Positions 5,454 to 36,120 of a stretch of DNA of 39,512 nt are shown here, in pieces. Position numbers and translations under genes: made by a program. Numbering within the stretch: position 1 is the first letter of the stretch; every line of letters starts with the position of its first letter. A model generated the notes under the pieces. That model was not told the DNA's origin and made no database searches. It worked only from the letters and a program-made list of their open reading frames with translations. The stretch lies in NCBI GenBank assembly GCA_017509155.1, contig JAFWQE010000059.1, positions 1 through 39,512 on the forward strand. Reading direction: 5' to 3'. The stretch comes from Prevotella sp. Lineage in GTDB: Bacteria; Bacteroidota; Bacteroidia; Bacteroidales; Bacteroidaceae.

Positions 5454-5945
5454 ATGAGAGACTTTGCCGCCATCGACTTTGAAACCGCCAACAACAAGCC
5501 CACCAGCGTGTGTTCCGTGGGCGTGGTGGTGGTCAGAGACGGCGAGTTCGTTGACTCTTTCTACTCGCTCATCCAGCCAGAACCCAACTACTACAACTAC
5601 TGGAACACCCGCATTCACGGCCTCACCCGGTACGACACAGAGGAAGCGCCGGTCTTCCCATACGTCTGGGAGAAGGTGGAGCCCCTGATAGAAGGACTCC
5701 CTCTGGTGGCCCACAACAAAGCCTTCGACGAGACCTGCCTGAAGGCGGTTTTCCGCTGTTACCAGATGGACTATCCCGACTACCCCTTCTTCTGCACCTG
5801 CATCGCCTCGCGAAAGGCCTTTCCTTTCGCACCCAACCACCAGCTTCACACCATCGCAGAACTCTGCGGCTACCACATGGAACACCACCATCACGCCCTC
5901 GACGATGCCATCGCCTGCGCCTGGATAGCCCGCGACATCCTGTAA
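5454..5945 (+). CDS. DnaQ-like 3'-5' exonuclease (DEDDh)
   Basis: A single-domain exonuclease of 163 residues. The three Exo motifs are visible: Exo I with D and E in AAIDFETAN, Exo II in VAHNKAFDETCL, and Exo III in HHALDDAIACAWIA with the DEDDh histidine. HGLTRYDTEEAPVF after Exo I is typical of DNA polymerase III epsilon-like proteins. It has no BRCT or helicase extension. It could be a proofreading or repair nuclease or an oligoribonuclease-like enzyme. It follows plsC by 57 bases with no clear promoter between, so it probably shares that transcript. Confidence 0.88.
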   Translation: MRDFAAIDFETANNKPTSVCSVGVVVVRDGEFVDSFYSLIQPEPNYYNYWNTRIHGLTRYDTEEAPVFPYVWEKVEPLIEGLPLVAHNKAFDETCLKAVFRCYQMDYPDYPFFCTCIASRKAFPFAPNHQLHTIAELCGYHMEHHHHALDDAIACAWIARDIL

Positions 5946-13371: not shown

Positions 13372-14550
13372 ATGATAGCCCGAATCATTGTCCTGCTCCT
13401 GTTGCTCATCGCCGTTCCCGACCTCTACTTCCACTGGCACTACCTGCGGCGGAAGAAAGGCTACGGCATGTGGAAACGCATCTTGTTCTGGCTTCCCGCA
13501 CTGGGAATGACGGCCTATGCACTGGCACTGACTACCGTCGACGGCTTTGCACCCACCGACATCAACTGGCTCTATCTGTTCTTGCTACTGCTCGGACTGA
13601 TTGTTGTTCCCAAAGCGCTGTTCGCCCTATGCAGCTGGCTGGGACTGATCGTCTGCCGCTTGCGCAAGTCGCGCCATAACTGGGGCAACGCCATCGGACT
13701 GGTGCTCGCCCTGCTGTCGGTCTACGTGATCGTCTACGGCAGCACACTGGGCGTGATGAACCTGAAGGTGCGCCACGTGGAAGTGGCCTTCGCCGACCTG
13801 CCACCTGCCTTCGACGGCTACCGCATTGTCCACATCAGCGACATCCATGCAGGCTCGCTCACCGGATTCCGCGACAGACTGCTCGACCGAGCCGTAGACA
13901 GCATCAACGCACAACAGGCGGACATGGTGGTCTTCACCGGCGACATCCAGAACATACTGCCGCAGGAACTCGACCACATACAGCCACGGCTGTCGTCGAT
14001 AAGCGCCGCCGATGGCGTGTTCGCTGTGTTGGGCAACCACGACTATGCCAACTATATTGTGACCGATGAAGATACGCGTCGACTGAACGAACAGCAGACG
14101 CAGAGCCGCATTCGCAGCATGGGATGGCAGCTGTTGATGAACGACAGCCGCGTGGTGAAGCGGCAATCCGACAGCATCGTCATTGCAGGCACCGAGGACA
14201 ACTGTCCGTCGCGCTACCGCAAGAATCCGCTTAACCGCAGCAACATCGGCCAGGCGGTGAAGGGCGCAGGCGAAGGTTCGTTCCTGGTCATGCTGCAACA
14301 TGCACCCAGACTCTGGACAGACAGCATTCTGGGAAAGACACACGCACAGCTCACTCTTTCAGGCCACACCCACGGTGGGCAGATAAGACTCTTCGGATGG
14401 GCGCCGGCACGAGTGGTTGAAAAACACGTGGCGGGCCTCGACAACGAAGGCAACCGTGCCCTCTATGTGAGCGCAGGCCTAAGTGGGCTCGTACCTTTCC
14501 GGTTTGGCGTGCCGCCCGAAATCGCCGTCATCACGCTGCGCAGGAAATAG
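13372..14550 (+). CDS. Membrane-anchored metallophosphoesterase
   Basis: A calcineurin-like phosphoesterase of 392 residues. Four hydrophobic segments occupy about 1-125 (for example IIVLLLLLIAVPDLYF and IGLVLALLSVYVIVYG). The metal-binding domain follows: ISDIHAGSL (DxH), FTGDIQN (GD), LGNHDYANY (GNHD), LQHAPRL and SGHTHGGQIRLFG (GHTHGG). This arrangement matches the YkuE/YaeI-type family, some of which hydrolyse UDP-diacylglucosamine or phosphodiester lipids. The substrate is unknown here. It follows the MetH-activation gene after a 60-base tandem-repeat spacer and is probably on the same transcript. Confidence 0.9.
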   Translation: MIARIIVLLLLLIAVPDLYFHWHYLRRKKGYGMWKRILFWLPALGMTAYALALTTVDGFAPTDINWLYLFLLLLGLIVVPKALFALCSWLGLIVCRLRKSRHNWGNAIGLVLALLSVYVIVYGSTLGVMNLKVRHVEVAFADLPPAFDGYRIVHISDIHAGSLTGFRDRLLDRAVDSINAQQADMVVFTGDIQNILPQELDHIQPRLSSISAADGVFAVLGNHDYANYIVTDEDTRRLNEQQTQSRIRSMGWQLLMNDSRVVKRQSDSIVIAGTEDNCPSRYRKNPLNRSNIGQAVKGAGEGSFLVMLQHAPRLWTDSILGKTHAQLTLSGHTHGGQIRLFGWAPARVVEKHVAGLDNEGNRALYVSAGLSGLVPFRFGVPPEIAVITLRRK

Positions 14551-14854
14551 TCATTCAGCACCTGTCATGGGCTGTTCCCACTTCTCCTCCCCTACTCTAT
14601 GACTATATGCCGTCTCGTTTGTGACGCGGCATTAAAAAAAACTAATGCTGTCCGCTCAGACATCGCCTTTCAGCCGAGCAGAGAGGGGAGCGGCTGCGCA
14701 TCGCATTTCCTTCATTTTCATCACGTGAACACGTGTTCAAGTGGACTCCAAATTCAAGTTTCGCAAGCTGTGAAGCGACGGCCAGCGAGGCCAGGACTGC
14801 CGGAAACGAACGGCGAAAACGACGGACTGAAGCAACAAAAGCGGCAGAATGGCT

Positions 14855-14942
14855 GGACAAATCCAATGGAATTGTTGAACGAATCCATTGAAATCGTTGA
14901 ACAAAATCAATGGAATCGTTGGACGAATCCAATGGATTCGTT
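14855..14942 (+). repeat. Array of four 22-bp units with internal dyads (locus A)
   Basis: Units start at 14855, 14877, 14899 and 14921 with no spacers. The last contains the perfect 19-bp palindrome ACGAATCCAATGGATTCGT (14923-14941); the others are degenerate versions with the same centre. A weaker unit can be aligned at 14833-14854, and perhaps 14943-14964. The same unit recurs in inverted orientation at 33727-33814. A period of 22 rules out coding. Confidence 0.9.
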
Positions 14943-15098
14943 TACAAAAACTGGCGGTTTTGCTTGCTGAAACTGGCAGACTGACGACTCAAAAACAGCA
15001 GAAGACAAGGGAAAAGACTTTGGTATGCCTGCGGCGCCACATGAATATGCACGAATAAACATGTAAGTAACGAATCAAAATTAACTTATATGATAAAC

Positions 15099-15611: not shown

Positions 15612-17909
15612 TTATCTGCTCTTGGAAGGCGTTTCTTCCTTCTCACCTGCCTTTGCTGCCAGCAGTGCGTCGATGTTTTCCTCTTCGCCCACCACCCAGA
15701 TGATGTCTCCCTGCTGGAAACGGTATGAAGGCTTCACCTGCGAAAGGTTTTCCTCACCCTCCTCCAGACCAACCACCATGCAGTTGTATTGGTGGCGGAT
15801 GCCGCTTTCCTGTAAGGTCAGACCAATAAAGGGACTTGTCTTGGCAATGACCATCGAGCGCAGCTTCATCTCACGTTTCTCCAGTTCGTAGTCCTCCTCC
15901 AGCGTCTCGGTCTCCAGCGCGTGACGGAAAGCCGTCAGCTGGTCGTCGCTACCGATGACCTGAAGACGGTCTCCCGGGAACAGCACGTCGTCGCCGTCGG
16001 GAATGTTCAGCCGTCGGTTGGCACGCAAAATGCTGCTTACGTGGATGCCGAACTTACGTCCCAGAGCGAGTTCCTTCAGCGTGCACCCCATCCAGAGCGA
16101 GTCGGCAGGCACGTCAAAGTCGGCAATGTGGATGTCGCGGTCGAGCAAACGCCCTTCATAGAGCGGCCGCTTGTGTCCATACACCTGAGCCTCGATGTCG
16201 CGCGAGCGTAGGTTTTGTATGAAGAGACGTTCCAGCCTGATGCTGCGTTTCTTGGTGGTGCGCGACATAATAATGAGTATGACTGCCACGATGCCAATGG
16301 TGATCATCAGCGCGTTGGAGAATCTTGTCAGGTAGTTACAGATGTAGAATATGAGGGCCACAGCGATGACCAACCTCACCAAGATTGTAAAGATGAGTGG
16401 CACACGGTTGATGTTGCTCTCGTTCCATAAAGTGCGGAACTCCTCGCTGTGGTTCTTCTTCATCACCATGGCACGCAGGAATGGCGAGATGAACAGGACG
16501 GTGAGCATGCCCGTTATCGCGTTGGCATACCAGTGAAGTTCCCAGCCAGGCAGCAGCTTGCGCATGAACGGCAGCACAAAGGCGAACATCAACGTGATGA
16601 CGGCGGACGAGAGAATGCCATAGATAAGCGTGTTTCGGCCCATGGCTATCAGTAGTCGTTTCCACAGGCTCTTCTCCGTTGTGTCAGGATGATTGGTGGC
16701 GAAATGATTGAGCGATCGCACCCACCGGTCGGGCAGATGGCGCTCGAGTAGGTTGTAGGCTGGCGTGGCCAGACGAATCATGTAGGGAGTGAGGAACGTA
16801 GTAATGACGGAAACGGCCACCACAACAGGATAGAGGAAGTTGCCAATAACGCCCAGCGACAGGCCCAGCGAGGCAATAATGAACGAGAATTCACCTATCT
16901 GCGCCATGGAAAAGCCGCACCTCATGGCCGACTTCAGGCTCTCGCCACCCAGCATGAAGGCAAATGAACCGAACACAGCCTGACCAACGAGGATGGTCAT
17001 TACAAGCGTGACGATGGGGACAGCATAGTCTATGAGCACCTTGGGATCGACCAGCATGCCGACAGACACAAAGAAAATGGCACCGAAAAGGTTTTTAACT
17101 GGCTCCACCAGACGGATAATCTTCTCGGCCTCAATGGTCTCTGCCAGGATGCTGCCCATGACGAACGCTCCGAATGCCGACGAAAAACCGACCTTGGTAC
17201 TTAGCACGGCCATGGCACAGCACAAACCAAGCGAGACCACCAGAAGCACCTCGCTGTTCATCAGTTTACGGGTGCGGCGCAGGAACAAGGGTATGGCAAA
17301 GATGCCCACCACAAACCAAAGCACCAGGAAGAATCCTATCTTCAGCACCGAGCCAAGCATCTGTCCGCCGTCGGCACCACTTCCACTTGCAATGGCGCTC
17401 AACATCACCATCATGACGATGGCAAGGATGTCTTCCAGAATGAGAACGCTCATCACCAGTCCGGCAAACTGCTGCTGACGGAGACCAAGGTCGTCGAACG
17501 CCTTGTAGATAATCGTCGTCGACGACATGGCAAGCATACCACCCAGGAAGATGCAATCCATCTTGCTCCAGCCAAACAACTGGCCTACGCAGATGCCCAA
17601 CATCATCATACAGAAGATGATGGTCACTGTGGAGATGATGGGCGAGGCGCCCATTTTCAGAATCTTCTTGAACGAAAAGTCAAGACCAAGCGAGAACAAC
17701 AGGAACATCACTCCGATGTCTGCCCAGGTGTGAATGTCCTGATGGTCGACCACCGATGCCAAATAGGGCATGTGCGGACTCACCAGAAAGCCAGCCACCA
17801 CATAGCCCAGCACCAGCGGCTGTTTCAGTTTCTTGAAAACAAGTGTCACCACACCTGCCACCATCAGTATCAGCGCTAGGTCTTTTATCAAAGCAGGTAG
17901 TTCTCCCAT
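15612..17909 (-). CDS. CPA2-family cation:proton antiporter with tandem RCK_C domains
   Basis: A KefB/KefC-like exchanger of 765 residues. The first ~390 are the Na+/H+ exchanger membrane domain, with GYVVAGFLVSPH, a re-entrant LFSLGLDFSFKK region and MSSTTIIYKAFDDLG. A second hydrophobic block follows (about 425-545), then two TrkA-C/RCK_C domains (about 585-655 and 675-750; VLFPGDRLQVIGSDDQL and GDIIWVVGEEENID). No NAD-binding TrkA_N Rossmann motif is seen, unlike E. coli KefC. The RCK_C pair suggests ligand gating. The ion is not readable from sequence; K+ or Na+ is likely. It has its own promoter and terminator. Confidence 0.92.
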   Translation of the reverse strand: MGELPALIKDLALILMVAGVVTLVFKKLKQPLVLGYVVAGFLVSPHMPYLASVVDHQDIHTWADIGVMFLLFSLGLDFSFKKILKMGASPIISTVTIIFCMMMLGICVGQLFGWSKMDCIFLGGMLAMSSTTIIYKAFDDLGLRQQQFAGLVMSVLILEDILAIVMMVMLSAIASGSGADGGQMLGSVLKIGFFLVLWFVVGIFAIPLFLRRTRKLMNSEVLLVVSLGLCCAMAVLSTKVGFSSAFGAFVMGSILAETIEAEKIIRLVEPVKNLFGAIFFVSVGMLVDPKVLIDYAVPIVTLVMTILVGQAVFGSFAFMLGGESLKSAMRCGFSMAQIGEFSFIIASLGLSLGVIGNFLYPVVVAVSVITTFLTPYMIRLATPAYNLLERHLPDRWVRSLNHFATNHPDTTEKSLWKRLLIAMGRNTLIYGILSSAVITLMFAFVLPFMRKLLPGWELHWYANAITGMLTVLFISPFLRAMVMKKNHSEEFRTLWNESNINRVPLIFTILVRLVIAVALIFYICNYLTRFSNALMITIGIVAVILIIMSRTTKKRSIRLERLFIQNLRSRDIEAQVYGHKRPLYEGRLLDRDIHIADFDVPADSLWMGCTLKELALGRKFGIHVSSILRANRRLNIPDGDDVLFPGDRLQVIGSDDQLTAFRHALETETLEEDYELEKREMKLRSMVIAKTSPFIGLTLQESGIRHQYNCMVVGLEEGEENLSQVKPSYRFQQGDIIWVVGEEENIDALLAAKAGEKEETPSKSR

Positions 17910-21854: not shown

Positions 21855-22056
21855 TTAAGGTGGGTTCTATTAATTCGCTTTGTCAGATTTCTGAGCTGTT
21901 TTTGCTTTCAGTCTGTAAGTTGAAGAGGGAGTGTAGCGGGCTACACGACTGATGAGACTTACTGAATGGAACAAAAAGAGCCGGAAAAATGACAAAAGGT
22001 GAACAACCCCCAGCAATGTCAAACTTAACCGTGGGAATTAATAGAACCCACCTTAA
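21855..22056. mobile_element. MITE-like element, 202 bp including TTAA flanks
   Basis: Perfect 22-bp terminal inverted repeats at 21855-21876 and 22035-22056. Each starts (outermost) with TTAA followed by GGTGGGTTCTATTAATTC, so TTAA may be a target-site duplication around an element with 18-bp ends. The interior continues as an imperfect palindrome (TTTGTCA.../...TGACAAA; GAGCTGTTTTTG.../...CAAAAAGAGC) centred on GTGTAGCGGGCTACAC (21931-21946). It has no coding capacity. The parent transposase is not in the window. Confidence 0.85.
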
Positions 22057-22180
22057 GGAGTTCAGGAGTTACATGAGTTGCAGGAGTTACAGACGTTAGT
22101 TCTCTGAGCTTCTCATCGAGAGCATCAGCGCTTAGACTATCGTCTGTAACTCCTGCAACACCTGTAACTCCTGAAGCTCC
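22057..22180. repeat. AGGAGTT-type inverted repeat element, copy 1
   Basis: Left arm 22057-22095 and right arm 22141-22180 are imperfect inverted copies built from words like CAGGAGTTAC, each ending in AGACG at the loop. The loop (22096-22140) has a smaller nested pairing, TCTGAGC/GCTTAGA. It abuts the MITE and the lptD stop codon. See copies at 25226 and 34091. Confidence 0.85.
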
Positions 22181-25225: not shown

Positions 25226-25388
25226 ATTAGGAGTTGCAGGAGATATATTTAGGAGTTACAGGAGTTCAGGAGTTGCAGACGATACGTTTGTACGCGCTTT
25301 TATGCTAATCTGCGGATAAAACTATCGTCTGCAACTCCTGTAACTCCTGAACTCCTGTAACTCCCAAACATCTCCTGCAACTCCTAAT
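25226..25388. repeat. AGGAGTT-type inverted repeat element, copy 2 (longest)
   Basis: Left arm 25226-25284, loop 25285-25322, right arm 25323-25388. The arms match nearly perfectly from ATTAGGAGTTGCAGGAGAT inwards to GAGTTGCAGACGATA. The right arm has one additional ~9-base repeat unit, so the element grows and shrinks by unit slippage. Confidence 0.9.
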
Positions 25389-31079: not shown

Positions 31080-33542
31080 TTACTGCTGCTGCATGCCCGA
31101 GCCCACGCTGTTGAGCATCTCACCCTGCGACTGCTGCTCGATGTAGTCGTTCTGGATTCGGTTCTGATGCTGGCGCATCTGGCGCTTGGTGTTTCCGAAA
31201 CTGTAGCTCACGCTGAAGGTAATGCCGCTCATGGGAACCTTAATGGTCTGATGGCTCAGGAAGTTGTTGCCGTTGTTGTAGCTCTCCATCTTCAGGTTGC
31301 CGCCTTCCGAAAGGCCGACCATGCCTTGCAGGCTGAGGCTGAGCTTGTCGTCGAAGAAGGTCTTCGAGAGACTTGCCGTGAGCATGTTGAAACCGCTGGT
31401 CCAGCCCTGCAGCGAGTAGCTCTTCGACGAGTTGATGAGGTAACCGCCGAGCTTCAGGTCCCAGGGAAGGGTCTGCTGAAGTCCCACCATGGTGTTATAC
31501 TGCCAGCCGCCGTTGTCGATGTTGAGGGCCTTGCTGCTCATGTCGATGTAGTTGATGGCGCCGTTGAGCATGATGCGCGTCTTGGGGAACATCAGCCAGT
31601 TGGCAAAGGCGCTCAGACCGGTCTGGTGGCGGCTGGCCATGTTGCCGTAGGTGGTGTTCAGCAGCGAACCGTCGTAGAAGCTGTACTGCTCGATGGCGTT
31701 GTCGGTGAAATTGTGATGCAGATTCAGGTTGAGCATCAGCTTTGTCGAGTAAAGGTTGTAGACAAGGGCGATGTTATGGCTCTTCTCCACGTCGAGGTTG
31801 GTGTTGCCATACGACAGCGAGTTGGGGTCGGACTGGTTGACATAGGGGTTCAGATAGGTGATGCCGGGGCGCGAGATGCGCATGTTGTAGGTCAGACCGA
31901 TGTTGCTGGTCGGGGCCAGACTGTAGGAGAGGCTGGCGGCGGGCACCAGTGATCCGTAGTTCACGCTGAAGTCGGAGCCCTGGCCCAGGCGGTATTCCAC
32001 GTCCTGCCAGGTGTGCTCGTAGCGAAGGCCGGCCTTGGCGGAGAGACTGCCCCAGCGGTTCTCGAGCTCGGCATAGCCAGCCAGCACGGTGTTCTTGTAT
32101 GTATAGTCCATGCTGCCGTTGACGTCATACTGGCCACCGAAATAGTAGGTAGCGTCCGACGTGGCGTTGCGCATCATGAGCTTCGAGCCCAGATTGAGGG
32201 TGCGACCGGTGCCGAGGGGCATGGTGTAGTCGGCCTGGAAGGTGTGGTCGGTGGTGTGTTCCTTGTTGTCGCTGGTGCGGTCGGTGAGGTCGATGCTCGA
32301 TGCCACACCGTCCTGGAAGTTGTTCTCCTGCTCGGTCTTCATCGGACTGTAGCTGAGCTGATAGGTGAGAACGAGGCTCTGGGTGCGCTCCTTGTTGAAG
32401 AACCGCTGATAGTCTACGGTGCCGCTGAACGACGTGCGCTTGTTGCGCATCAGCATATCGGTGGTGTAGGAAAAGCCGTTACCATAGGCGCCGCCCTGCT
32501 GGGTGGTGGTCACCCGGCCGGTGTTCTTCATGTTCATGCTTGTCAATGAGAGGGTCATATTGATGCTGCTTTTGTCGTCGATGTCATAGCCCAGACCCAC
32601 GTTGCCCATCGTGAAGGGCAGCTTCACACTGGTAGAGGTGGTGGACAGAATGGTACCGGTGCCGTTCTGCTGTTCCATCTCCACGTCGGTGCTTCCGGGC
32701 TTCGAATAGTTCTCCATCACGTTGGCACTGTAGGAGAACTTGCCCTGCTGGCCGCTTACGAAGGCTCCGGCACCCAGACTGCGGTTGCCCACTGAGGCGC
32801 GCAGCGTGCCGGTGTAGCCGTTGAGACTCTGCGGGGCCATCGGGTTCTGCTTGTTCATCACGATGTTGAGCACGCCACCGGCGCCCTCGGCATCGTACTT
32901 CGCACCGGGGTTGGTCACCACTTCGATGTTCTGCACCATGCTGGCGGGCATGCTCTTGAAAACCATCGAGGGGTTGCTCTGGAACATGACGTTGGGCTTG
33001 CCGTCGACATATATCTTGAACGACGACGAGCCGTTCACCGAGATATTGTCCTGTCCGTCGACGGTCACCATGGGCACCTTGCGCAACATGTCGAGCACGG
33101 TGGCGGCCTTGGCGTCGGCATCCTCGGCCACGTTGTAGGTCATCTTGTCTACCTCCATCTTCACGAGAGGCTTCTGGGCCACCACTTCCACGGCTTCCAG
33201 CTGCTTCGAACTGTCGCTGATATAGATGGTGTCGAGGTCGACCACAGGCTGCTCTCCCAGCGTGATGGCTTTCTTCACATCTTCCTTGCCTACGCTGCTG
33301 AACACGATGTCGAACTGGCCCTTGCCGTTGACATCGCTGCTGAACTGGCCTTCGTCGCCCGTAAGGAACATGGCGACGGCGTTCTGGCTTTGTCCCTGAT
33401 GAAACACCCTAACGGTGGCAAAGGGCTCACCCTCGCCCGTGATCTTGTCCACTAACACGCCCTTCACGGTGGTGGTCTGGGCTACTGCTGCTGACGTCAG
33501 CATGGTCAGCAATGCTACGAATAGTACTCTTGCTCTTTTCAT
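31080..33542 (-). CDS. Outer-membrane beta-barrel receptor (TonB-dependent-type, OMP_b-brl_3)
   Basis: 820 residues from ATG 33542 (MKRARVLFVALLTMLTSAAV, a signal peptide). A carboxypeptidase-regulatory-like domain (about 22-100: KGVLVDKITGEGEPFATVRV) is followed by a plug domain (about 120-225: VLDMLRKVPMVTVDGQDNIS, IYVDGKP, IEVVTNPGAKYDAEGAGGVL) and a long barrel (about 240-800). The C terminus is Gln-rich (SVGSGMQQQ) rather than ending in an aromatic. This family resembles SusC/TonB receptors but often lacks a SusD partner, and none is here. The ligand is unknown. It has its own promoter and terminator and lies upstream of the LytS/LytTR pair. Confidence 0.88.
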   Translation of the reverse strand: MKRARVLFVALLTMLTSAAVAQTTTVKGVLVDKITGEGEPFATVRVFHQGQSQNAVAMFLTGDEGQFSSDVNGKGQFDIVFSSVGKEDVKKAITLGEQPVVDLDTIYISDSSKQLEAVEVVAQKPLVKMEVDKMTYNVAEDADAKAATVLDMLRKVPMVTVDGQDNISVNGSSSFKIYVDGKPNVMFQSNPSMVFKSMPASMVQNIEVVTNPGAKYDAEGAGGVLNIVMNKQNPMAPQSLNGYTGTLRASVGNRSLGAGAFVSGQQGKFSYSANVMENYSKPGSTDVEMEQQNGTGTILSTTSTSVKLPFTMGNVGLGYDIDDKSSINMTLSLTSMNMKNTGRVTTTQQGGAYGNGFSYTTDMLMRNKRTSFSGTVDYQRFFNKERTQSLVLTYQLSYSPMKTEQENNFQDGVASSIDLTDRTSDNKEHTTDHTFQADYTMPLGTGRTLNLGSKLMMRNATSDATYYFGGQYDVNGSMDYTYKNTVLAGYAELENRWGSLSAKAGLRYEHTWQDVEYRLGQGSDFSVNYGSLVPAASLSYSLAPTSNIGLTYNMRISRPGITYLNPYVNQSDPNSLSYGNTNLDVEKSHNIALVYNLYSTKLMLNLNLHHNFTDNAIEQYSFYDGSLLNTTYGNMASRHQTGLSAFANWLMFPKTRIMLNGAINYIDMSSKALNIDNGGWQYNTMVGLQQTLPWDLKLGGYLINSSKSYSLQGWTSGFNMLTASLSKTFFDDKLSLSLQGMVGLSEGGNLKMESYNNGNNFLSHQTIKVPMSGITFSVSYSFGNTKRQMRQHQNRIQNDYIEQQSQGEMLNSVGSGMQQQ

Positions 33543-33620
33543 ATCTTTAATCGGTTTTGTTATTCTTTTCTTTGTCGTTACCAATTATTGGTGCTCAGGG
33601 GCACCGTTTTGTTTTCGATG

Positions 33621-33651: not shown

Positions 33652-33726
33652 GAACCTTTCGACGACTTGCCGATTTTTCTTCGACGAATCATTTTTCTTC
33701 ATGACCCATTTCGACGGTTTCCGCAG

Positions 33727-33814
33727 ACGATTCCATTGGTTTCGTTCGACGAATCCATTGATTTCGTTCAACGATTCCATTGGATTCGTTCAACAATTCC
33801 ATTGGTTTCGTTCC
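33727..33814 (-). repeat. Array of four 22-bp units with internal dyads (locus B)
   Basis: Units start at 33727, 33749, 33771 and 33793, inverted relative to locus A (14855-14942). The third contains ACGATTCCATTGGATTCGT, a 19-bp dyad with one mismatch. Degenerate in-phase units (ACGA...TTCTTC) can be traced to about 33662. The array lies ~75 bp upstream of the receptor's -33 element. Confidence 0.88.
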
Positions 33815-33918
33815 ATCTTTCTGCCGTTTTAATTTCGTTTATCTGCCATTCTTTCTAATTCTTTTTGCCGTTTCTCCCGCGTGTCCCTCGCAGAGTCCTC
33901 GCGCGTTCATAACAAATA

Positions 33919-34070
33919 CTCTGCGAAACTCAGCCAACTCCGCGTGATATAACTCTCGCCGAGTTTGCTGAGTTGCGCAGAGCCTTCCCGCGTGCCAAAT
34001 AAAAAACTCTGCGAGACTCGGCCAACTCCGCGTGAGACATCACTCGCCGAGTAAGCAGAGTCGCGCAGAG
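33919..34070. repeat. Two tandem 88-bp-period hairpin units
   Basis: 33919-33982 and 34007-34070 are close copies exactly 88 bases apart. Each is an imperfect palindrome running from CTCTGCGA to TCGCGCAGAG (or TTGCGCAGAG) around CAACTCCGCGTGA. Linkers containing CCCGCGTG flank them, and a decayed partial unit precedes at about 33890-33918. Confidence 0.88.
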
Positions 34071-34090
34071 ATTTCCCGCGTGATTAAAGG

Positions 34091-34341: not shown

Positions 34342-36120
34342 CTATTCTTTGTGGTCGCGCTCAATCCATGCGAGTGTCTGGCCCTTCATGACCTTCGCTC
34401 CCTGCTTGGCAGCTATCTCCACGAGCTTGCCGCCCAGGGCAGCGGGAATGGTCTGAATCTCGCCCCATGGCGTCTGGATGTAGCAGAAGGTCTGCCCTTC
34501 CTCGTATTTCTGTCCGATGAACGGCTCCACGCACGGCGCGCACTCGCCGTCGCCAGAGAACTCGTAGTAGATCTGTCCCTTGACAGGAGCCACCAGAGCG
34601 TCGGCCTTGGCGTGCTTGAACTCGGCAATCTTCTCGGGAGAGAGGCTGGCGCCAAGCTTCTGATCCTTCATCTTCTGCAGGTCGGCCAGGAAGTTCTTCT
34701 TGGCCTGTCCGCTCTTGAAGTTACGATACTGCTCGGGGTGCATGGCCAGTTCGTAGAGCTCTTCGTCGTCGGGTCCGTACTCCCATCCGTTCTCGTCCAT
34801 CTCCTTGCGGAAGTCCGGGAGGGCGTTAGGCAGCAGCGTGTGCGGGTCGGCATCGGTAAACTCGCGGCCCTGTTTCTTGGCCAGCTCCACCAGTTCGGCG
34901 TCGATGGTGCCCGGTATCTTTCCACTCTTTCCGAGGATCATGCCCCACATGGCATCGTCCATCATCACGAAGCGTCCCTTGCCCTGCGCCATGGTGAGCA
35001 GGTTCATCAGGGCGATGTTCTTCACGTATTGCGAGAACGGCGTGACGAGTGGCGGATAGCCCACCCGCGGCCATACGTAGGCCACCTCGTCGAAGAGCTT
35101 CACCAGCATGTCGTCGGTAGAGAGCTCCGGCTCGCCCTTGGCGGCCAGTGTCTTGTTGATAATGCTGTGGATGCCTGCCAGGTCGGCCATCATGGAGCCC
35201 ATCATGCCGCCGGGAAGACCGCAGCCAAGCAGCAGCGACGACATGAGCTTGTTGCCGGGATTGATGAAGTAGCCCAGCCAGTCGTCGATGAATTCCTGCG
35301 TGAGTGCACGGGCCTTCATGTAGGCACTCATGTTGATGCCCTTCACCTCGAAGCCTTCGTGCTTCAGCATGGACTGCACGCTGATGATGTCCGGGTGCAC
35401 CTTACCCCATGAAAGCGGCTCGATGGCGGTGTCGATGACGTCGGCGCCGTTGTTGCACACCTCCAGGATGCTGGCCATGGAGAGGCCCGGGCCCGAGTGT
35501 CCATGATACTGGATGATGACATCGGGGTGCTTGGTCTTGATGGCCTTGGTGAGCGCACCGAGCAGGGCGGGCTGACCGATGCCGGCCATGTCCTTCAGGC
35601 AGATTTCCTCGGCACCGGCCTCAATCACCTGGTCGGCAATCTCGGAATAGTACTCCACCGTGTGCACAGGCGAGTTGGTGATGCAGAGCGTGGCCTGCGG
35701 CGTCATGCCGGCTGCCTTGGCCCACTTCACCGAAGGTATGATGTTGCGCACATCGTTGAGGCCGCAGAAGATACGCGGAATATCCACACCCTGCGCGTGC
35801 TTCACCTTATACTGCAGTTCGCGAACGTCATCGGGCACAGGGTACATGCGCAATGCGTTGAGGCCGCGATCGAGCATGTGAGTCTTGATGCCCGCTTCGT
35901 TGAACGGCTTGCAGAAGGCACGCACGGCGGCGTTGGGGTTCTCGCCGGCAAGCAGGTTCACCTGCTCAAAGGCACCACCATTGGTTTCCACACGGTCGAA
36001 CACGCCCATGTCGATAATCACAGGTGCTATGCGCTCCAACTGGTCTTTGCGAGGCTGGAACTTGCCCGAGCTCTGCCACATGTCTCGGTAGACGAGACTG
36101 AACTGGATTTTTTTCTTCAT
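34342..36120 (-). CDS. OadA-like carboxyltransferase with degenerate biotinyl-like tail
   Basis: 592 residues of the oxaloacetate decarboxylase alpha/pyruvate carboxylase B family (HMGL-like TIM barrel). Seen: VYRDMWQSSGKF (the usual DxHQS, with Trp for His), ETNGGAFEQ, LKDMAGIG (catalytic Lys), IQYHGHSGPG (metal-binding HxH), VIDTAIEPLSWG and GLPGGMMGSMM. The conserved carboxylase domain runs to about 500. The C-terminal lipoyl/biotinyl-like fold (from about 515) reads YIQTPWGEIQTI where biotin carriers have (E)AMKM, so the biotinyl lysine is missing. It probably carboxylates or decarboxylates a 2-oxo acid using a separate carrier. It has its own TATATTTG promoter box. Confidence 0.85.
   Translation of the reverse strand: MKKKIQFSLVYRDMWQSSGKFQPRKDQLERIAPVIIDMGVFDRVETNGGAFEQVNLLAGENPNAAVRAFCKPFNEAGIKTHMLDRGLNALRMYPVPDDVRELQYKVKHAQGVDIPRIFCGLNDVRNIIPSVKWAKAAGMTPQATLCITNSPVHTVEYYSEIADQVIEAGAEEICLKDMAGIGQPALLGALTKAIKTKHPDVIIQYHGHSGPGLSMASILEVCNNGADVIDTAIEPLSWGKVHPDIISVQSMLKHEGFEVKGINMSAYMKARALTQEFIDDWLGYFINPGNKLMSSLLLGCGLPGGMMGSMMADLAGIHSIINKTLAAKGEPELSTDDMLVKLFDEVAYVWPRVGYPPLVTPFSQYVKNIALMNLLTMAQGKGRFVMMDDAMWGMILGKSGKIPGTIDAELVELAKKQGREFTDADPHTLLPNALPDFRKEMDENGWEYGPDDEELYELAMHPEQYRNFKSGQAKKNFLADLQKMKDQKLGASLSPEKIAEFKHAKADALVAPVKGQIYYEFSGDGECAPCVEPFIGQKYEEGQTFCYIQTPWGEIQTIPAALGGKLVEIAAKQGAKVMKGQTLAWIERDHKE

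Follow-up and report, generated by a model that had tools for sequence, protein, structure and literature searches.

An evenly spaced family of four-dyad arrays on a rumen Prevotella chromosome and a HU-HIG protein that may read it

Arrays A and B, two sets of 22-bp units in the window (the whole stretch of DNA that was analysed, 39,512 nucleotides), are two of about 118 copies of one chromosomal site array in a rumen Prevotella. Judging from sequence comparisons, a sequence-specific protein of the HU-HIG family, encoded on contig C50 of the same genome, probably binds the arrays, regulates the gene that encodes it and marks sites at even intervals along the chromosome. The evidence comes from the architecture of the elements, their copy number, spacing and divergence between copies, the presence of species-specific 22-bp families in other Prevotella, and the enrichment of such arrays upstream of HU-HIG genes. 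The arrays and their neighbours in the window are as follows.

14785..15004, minus strand: element A, ten in-phase 22-bp units (3 flank + 4 core + 3 flank), placed by the ungapped stack; model R1 113.9 bits
14856..14942, minus strand: core of A, four abutting 21-bp dyads AACRAWWYCAWTGRWWTYGTT in 22-bp steps, including the perfect dyad at 14923-14941
33664..33883, plus strand: element B, ten in-phase 22-bp units (3 flank + 4 core + 3 flank), placed by the ungapped stack; model R1 106.8 bits
33726..33812, plus strand: core of B, four abutting 21-bp dyads in 22-bp steps
13372..14550, plus strand: calcineurin-like phosphoesterase gene (PF00149, PF12850), neighbour of A, convergent with the exchanger gene
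15612..17909, minus strand: Na+/H+ exchanger gene with TrkA-C domains (PF00999, PF02080), neighbour of A
31080..33584, minus strand: TonB-dependent receptor-like outer membrane barrel gene (domain match), neighbour of B
34342..36120, minus strand: carboxylase-domain (PYC_OADA/HMGL-like) gene (domain match), neighbour of B

The initial annotation described four 22-bp units of one family at each of two loci, in opposite orientation, and TRF, a pattern search and the strands of the matches bear this out: the 22-bp TRF rows on A and B hold 3.9 and 4.0 copies with zero indels, and a 21-mer pattern allowing up to 3 mismatches matches the window 11 times (some units being counted on both strands), against 0.01 expected from 100 shuffles. 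Its placement of A between convergent genes and of B upstream of the receptor-like ORF is likewise correct. The annotation also proposed spacerless units centred on a 19-bp dyad. A perfect 19-bp case exists in A, where ACGAATCCAATGGATTCGT at 14923-14941 is symmetric about its central base, but over the 472 core units of the family the full dyad is 21 bp long, with the consensus AACRAWWYCAWTGRWWTYGTT; the steps are exactly 22 bp, with a single spacer base between dyads, so that each core holds four complete dyads.

In the window's genome (G000, a 3.44-Mb draft in 229 contigs), a 17-base pattern with up to 2 mismatches occurs at 222 forward and 216 reverse places, against none for the reversed control and 0 to 16 places per strand in 39 relatives. 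A sequence-only model built from 24 elements and used to score 150 of 878 first-look candidates yielded 115 deduplicated sites, to which the 17-base pattern added three that the model had missed, giving 118 elements on 69 contigs; 1.38 Mb on element-free contigs was left out of the fetched sequence. Of the 438 pattern matches, 429 fall inside these elements, and the set is thus nearly complete.

When the 118 copies are stacked, signal extends across ten 22-bp units, three flank, four core and three flank, at 9.8, 10.2 and 20.3 bits, then 30.3, 34.2, 30.7 and 26.1, then 16.7, 11.7 and 10.5 bits per unit, before dropping to about 2; the stack is ungapped by construction and could hide small indels in single flanks. 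The degenerate in-phase flanking units noticed in the window are therefore real, with roughly 10–20 bits per unit for three units per side. The number of core units is nearly fixed, at four in 112 of the 118 copies, five in five copies and three in one; a four-unit counterpart in another genome, G261, matches one of the five-unit copies.

The elements are evenly spaced. The 49 gaps on contigs with at least two elements range from 7.4 kb to 25.8 kb with a median of 12.9 kb and a coefficient of variation (CV) of 0.33; random placement of the same number of elements per contig (5000 runs) gives a mean CV of 0.94, with a minimum of 0.60. No gap is shorter than 5 kb, against a null mean of 16.75 such gaps, and the largest minimum gap in any null run is 3.0 kb (2.3 kb with another seed), against the observed 7.4 kb. 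Adjacent elements are oppositely oriented in 33 of the 49 gaps (p 0.02). The initial annotation had singled out an inverted pair some 19 kb apart; with 116 further copies in the genome, A and B turn out to be mere neighbours in an evenly spaced series. Element-bearing contigs average 17.4 kb per element. Density is uneven, and one 109-kb contig holds a single element. Contig ends show an excess of elements, 21 of the 118 lying 1 kb or less from an end where 7.9 are expected. Assembly breaks could hide some close pairs, although they seem too few to explain all the missing short gaps. Perhaps another repeat nearby breaks the assembly at these ends.

Tandem repeats are common in bacterial genomes, and A and B might be such repeats in functionless decay, a reading that is hardly credible for 118 copies with fixed phase, near-fixed unit number, conserved dyads and even spacing. 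The initial annotation had reserved it for arrays confined to two loci, freely variable in period and with unconserved dyads; the arrays occupy many more loci, free variation of the period is not seen, and copies within the genome keep the dyad.

The divergence between copies indicates what is conserved. Mean identity is 0.60 over 220 bp and 0.47 in the flanks. The 33 unconstrained flank columns are saturated (identity 0.285, with a median of 0.52 for nearest neighbours and of 0.48 after column shuffling), the core departs from its 84 consensus positions by 0–4 mismatches in 103 of the 118 copies and by more than 12 in none, and no decayed relics are found at the pattern level in the genome. 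Saturated flanks, kept cores and the absence of pattern-level relics point to purifying selection on each copy. Within the core, the doubly weak combination of the inner half-site pair is avoided (5 observed vs. 25.9 expected in 472 core units), which fits a threshold for dimer binding and is the opposite of what hairpin pairing predicts.

A long RNA or DNA hairpin as the selected feature would account for the stable folds, a single hairpin of −74.9 kcal/mol in A (z −6.7) and a fold with z −2.95 in B. It is nevertheless highly improbable, as no antidiagonal shows complementary covariation across the 118 copies, the within-unit pair 7-13 departs from base pairing (z −6.5), and neither array matches Rfam, the sole match in the window being a tRNA. 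The whole-element hairpin was rejected on the missing covariation and on this pair, the sole informative one within the unit, which goes the wrong way. Base-pair covariation being absent, the conserved feature is DNA sites rather than hairpins. The dyad-symmetric degenerate motif, the fixed 22-bp phase, the half-site avoidance and the lack of covariation together favour a protein-binding dyad array, as the initial annotation suggested; the iteron or parS identity that it offered gains no support. The four genes next to A and B carry other domains and include no replication initiator, no plasmid match was found for locus A, and the spread over 69 contigs argues against parS.

Few other genomes carry this family. 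Among 398 genus genomes searched, a pattern of two adjacent units is present only in G000, G261 (three elements by the model) and G187 (one element). Identical coordinates and scores suggest that G187 and G429 are the same genome, RUI529, whose exchanger (90%) makes it the nearest relative among the 80 loci listed.

Further 22-bp families, each with a sequence of its own, occur in other Prevotella. When 80 Prevotella loci (1.03 Mb) are scanned by lag at the middle threshold, lag 22 gives five arrays, and the other lags between 14 and 40, multiples of 3 excluded, give three in total. Among eight genomes searched with each pattern, that of a G421 array has 241 matches (139+102) in G421 and 3–13 in the other seven, that of a G431 array 105 (45+60) in G431 and 0–15 elsewhere, the 15 being in G433, and that of a G432 array 64 (28+36) in G432 and 1–5 elsewhere. 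De novo scans at lag 22 recover 13 arrays from G421 (384 kb scanned) and 15 from G431 (341 kb), where any other single lag gives 0–3 per contig; the sister species G429 has 16 in 316 kb at the 0.56 threshold, against at most four at any other lag. The core of the main G429 family resembles the flank units of the G000 family. The G421 elements have a conserved leader and tail, and the G429 arrays have recurring flanks. In G421, three different 22-bp array families follow one another within about 300 bp at one locus (L295, contig C4).

How even the spacing is varies among these genomes. Gaps below 8 kb number 0 of 13 in G421, against 3.5 expected (100 of the 241 matches used), 2 of 35 in G431, against 10 (100 of the 105 matches used), and 1 of 15 in G432, against 4.2, where the CV is not significant. 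On contig C41 of G421, arrays lie at 23.5, 48.9, 84.5, 115.2 and 145.5 kb; close pairs 0.4–2.9 kb apart in the de novo scan of G431 break the evenness. Array position is mostly not conserved between sister species, since of the six G000 array loci whose mapping exceeded 900 summed bits only one falls on a G429 array. At locus A, G429 lacks an array and carries an extra ORF, which by eye looks like a PAP2-type phosphatase.

A candidate reader is suggested by the genes that follow some of these arrays. In G000, an array of the type seen in the window lies 228 bp upstream of a HU-HIG gene (PF18291) at G000:C50:3637-3966, whose protein has 150 aa (L437:1501-1950), and a G421-type array lies upstream of the HU-HIG gene on contig C24 of G421. 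In all, genome-wide families lie near a HU-HIG gene of their own genome in G000 (C50, 228 bp), G421 (C24 and C31, two families at 147 and 80 bp) and G432 (C5, 404 bp), with a weak pairing at C207 in G429. The genome-wide G429 type comes only weakly near a HU-HIG gene, at L402 (lag score 0.48, 1.06 kb away). L402 had been considered as the orthologue of the C50 gene and was dropped, being about 80% identical to the HU-HIG gene on G000 contig C94 (L395); a close C50 relative is absent among the three family-type G429 HU-HIGs compared (L393, L402, L436), a tentative result in a draft that is 89% complete.

The association also appears when loci are chosen without regard to arrays. Of thirty HU-HIG loci, the best family matches listed from 150 genus genomes and picked by family score alone, 11 carry a lag-22 array within 600 bp upstream. 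Such arrays occur in 4 of the 558 windows that precede other ORFs in 80 different loci (Fisher p 1e-12), and in 2 of 86 other windows taken from the thirty HU-HIG loci themselves (p 4e-6). Close relatives among the 11 (L403/L404, L409/L410) leave fewer independent cases. Nine other lags give no array upstream of HU-HIG genes at the 0.6 threshold and one (lag 26) at 0.55. At the threshold used, the remaining 19 of the 30 genes lack an array in the upstream 600 bp, and in G000 three of the five family-type loci examined (L395, L434, L440) score below 0.5. As dyads, 7 of 21 arrays beside HU-HIG genes reach p<0.05, and those at L403, L404 and L436 are clearly non-dyad. PF18291 is present in all 11 genomes searched, with 4–19 genes each, and these counts do not separate array genomes from others. 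A profile built from 26 HU-HIG proteins finds the structures of HU and IHF (best E 1.3e-9); the weak PF18291 matches, to frames about 100 aa long, probably represent ordinary HU. In G432, four GC-rich dyads close to GCCGACCAAGGTCGGC stand in 22-bp steps 38 bp past the stop codon of a HU-HIG gene (L400, 2186-2274); they are unrelated in sequence to the main array family of that genome.

The arrays could instead be ordinary operators of a global transcription factor that regulates adjacent genes, their spacing being incidental. B, about 80 bp upstream of the listed start of the receptor-like ORF, and the arrays at promoter distance from HU-HIG genes would suit this reading. A lies between convergent genes, however, and by rough gene calls the 118 elements fall in convergent gaps in 11 cases, in tandem gaps in 48, in divergent gaps in 21, inside called ORFs in 29 and at contig edges in 9; 25 of the in-ORF elements lie in frames of 100–200 aa, which may be spurious, and four in longer frames (L088, L091, L095, L184). 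As regulons also have no reason to keep sites at least 7.4 kb apart, we regard operators as an improbable explanation.

A stronger competitor, if still an unlikely one, is a miniature mobile element with an internal phased minisatellite, like BrickBuilt, whose array-recognising transposase shuns targets near an existing copy; such immunity would produce even spacing. Target immunity is known in Mu and Tn7, and their transposases bind sites of about 22 bp. Copying does occur, as a subfamily that includes A is more recent, with 0.88–0.95 identity over 220 bp and ends at −66 or +154 or with longer extensions. The conserved leader and tail in G421, the recurring flanks in G429, the different positions in sister species and the lack of the locus A array in G429 also suit mobility. 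Against it, no convincing target duplication appears in the 118 copies at 5625 offset pairs for each k = 3, 4, 5, 6, 8 and 9, the largest excess being a 4-bp match in 7 copies (0.9 expected) whose offset falls within the element. Outside the motif most copies have reached saturation, and pattern-level relics are missing, whereas dead transposons would leave relics; the units are symmetric, unlike the MuA and TnsB sites, which are not; and arrays upstream of HU-HIG genes go unexplained.

BrickBuilt itself, in the part of its description available to us, is a miniature inverted-repeat transposable element (MITE) of Porphyromonas gingivalis that contains tandem copies of a 23-nt unit; its 19 copies hold 1 to 22.8 units each, some of them have terminal inverted repeats, and target duplications are seen in some cases (PMC4596501). 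As far as that description goes, the two share spacerless tandem units of 22–23 bp, an intergenic location (here for most copies, by rough gene calls), multiple copies, restriction to a species or its close kin and, in G421, leader and tail flanks; they differ in that the arrays here have a period of 22 bp, four units in 112 of 118 copies, 118 evenly spaced copies and no target duplications found. The kinship with BrickBuilt that the initial annotation raised finds no support as one of descent, given the period of 22 rather than 23, the near-fixed unit number and the target duplications that were not found. One of the 19 copies, BrickBuilt_14, adjoins a gene for a PF00216 (HU-type) DNA-binding protein in the same partial source, which may be chance (PMC4596501).

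The explanation that we prefer remains the HU-HIG protein. Dimers of a HU/IHF paralogue encoded at G000:C50:3637-3966 would occupy adjacent dyads. With four abutting dyads repeating every two helical turns (22 bp, at about 11 bp per turn), the dimers would line up on one face of the DNA and would bend or wrap the array. Sharp bending of DNA is a property of HU, a DNA-packaging protein, and of IHF, both of which act as dimers; in well-studied species HU-family proteins bend DNA with little sequence preference, which counts against the proposed binder. The array at promoter distance from the HU-HIG gene suggests autoregulation, in which the protein would control its own gene through the upstream array, and the regular intervals between the other copies point to an architectural role, in which they would form nucleoprotein anchors with a median gap of about 13 kb that organise the chromosome. 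We infer direct binding, wrapping, autoregulation and this organising role from the arrangement of sites and genes. Other candidate binders considered were the Lrp/AsnC octamer, ParR and gyrase.

Different Prevotella species have different array sequences, apparently matched to different HU-HIG paralogues. More tentatively, the arrays may be an evenly spaced multi-dyad bar-code in which each family is read by its own sequence-specific HU-type protein, protein and array changing together from species to species while the 22-bp geometry stays, i.e., a fast-evolving HU-based loop-anchor system that sets domains of about 10–30 kb.

Several known systems resemble the arrays in part. Like matS/MatP, parS/ParB and the sites of SlmA and Noc, they comprise many chromosomal dyad sites for what would be one nucleoid-organising protein; the sites of those systems are single, short, and clustered in or kept out of one region, whereas here long multi-dyad arrays are evenly spread and species-specific in sequence. 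The REP/BIME elements of enterobacteria, in the portion of the literature available, are also intergenic palindromic repeats in more than 100 copies that serve as protein-binding sites, but REPs form hairpins, are tied to RAYT transposases and lack a fixed 22-bp step, unlike the arrays described here. The proposed binder belongs to PF18291, whose profile matches HU and IHF structures; a 2017 paper on HU clades is reportedly the source of the HIG name. In the accessible parts of the open-access literature we found no description of evenly spaced multi-dyad arrays, nor of a DNA target or 22-bp array for PF18291. Among described elements BrickBuilt comes nearest, and the function of the arrays is a proposal.

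If the proposal is right, a large and little-characterised family, PF18291, gains a DNA target and a testable role, and a bacterial chromosome turns out to carry architectural sites that are defined by sequence and set at even intervals. It would also be a case in which a nucleoid protein and some hundred sites have changed specificity together, and what sets the size of bacterial chromosome domains would become directly testable in common gut bacteria.

Other repeats occur in the window and near some arrays. The window begins with a perfect 88-bp tandem repeat of 2.3 copies (1-206), part of which, GCGCCGCAGGC, occurs 41 times in 116 fetched G000 loci, so that the repeat belongs to a further dispersed family; a second, different 88-bp tandem repeat (1.9 copies, 83% matches) lies just past element B at 33914-34082. 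A dispersed 23-bp palindrome-like repeat, CGGATACGCCGATCCGCCCCTAC, has three copies in the fetched loci and lies near some arrays (L003 and L007, contigs C6 and C12 of G000). Paired runs of the 9-bp repeats AGGAGTTAC and CTGTAACTC occupy 22056-22173 and 25251-25364 of the window, and GAACTCCTGAACTCC occurs 21 times in the fetched loci.
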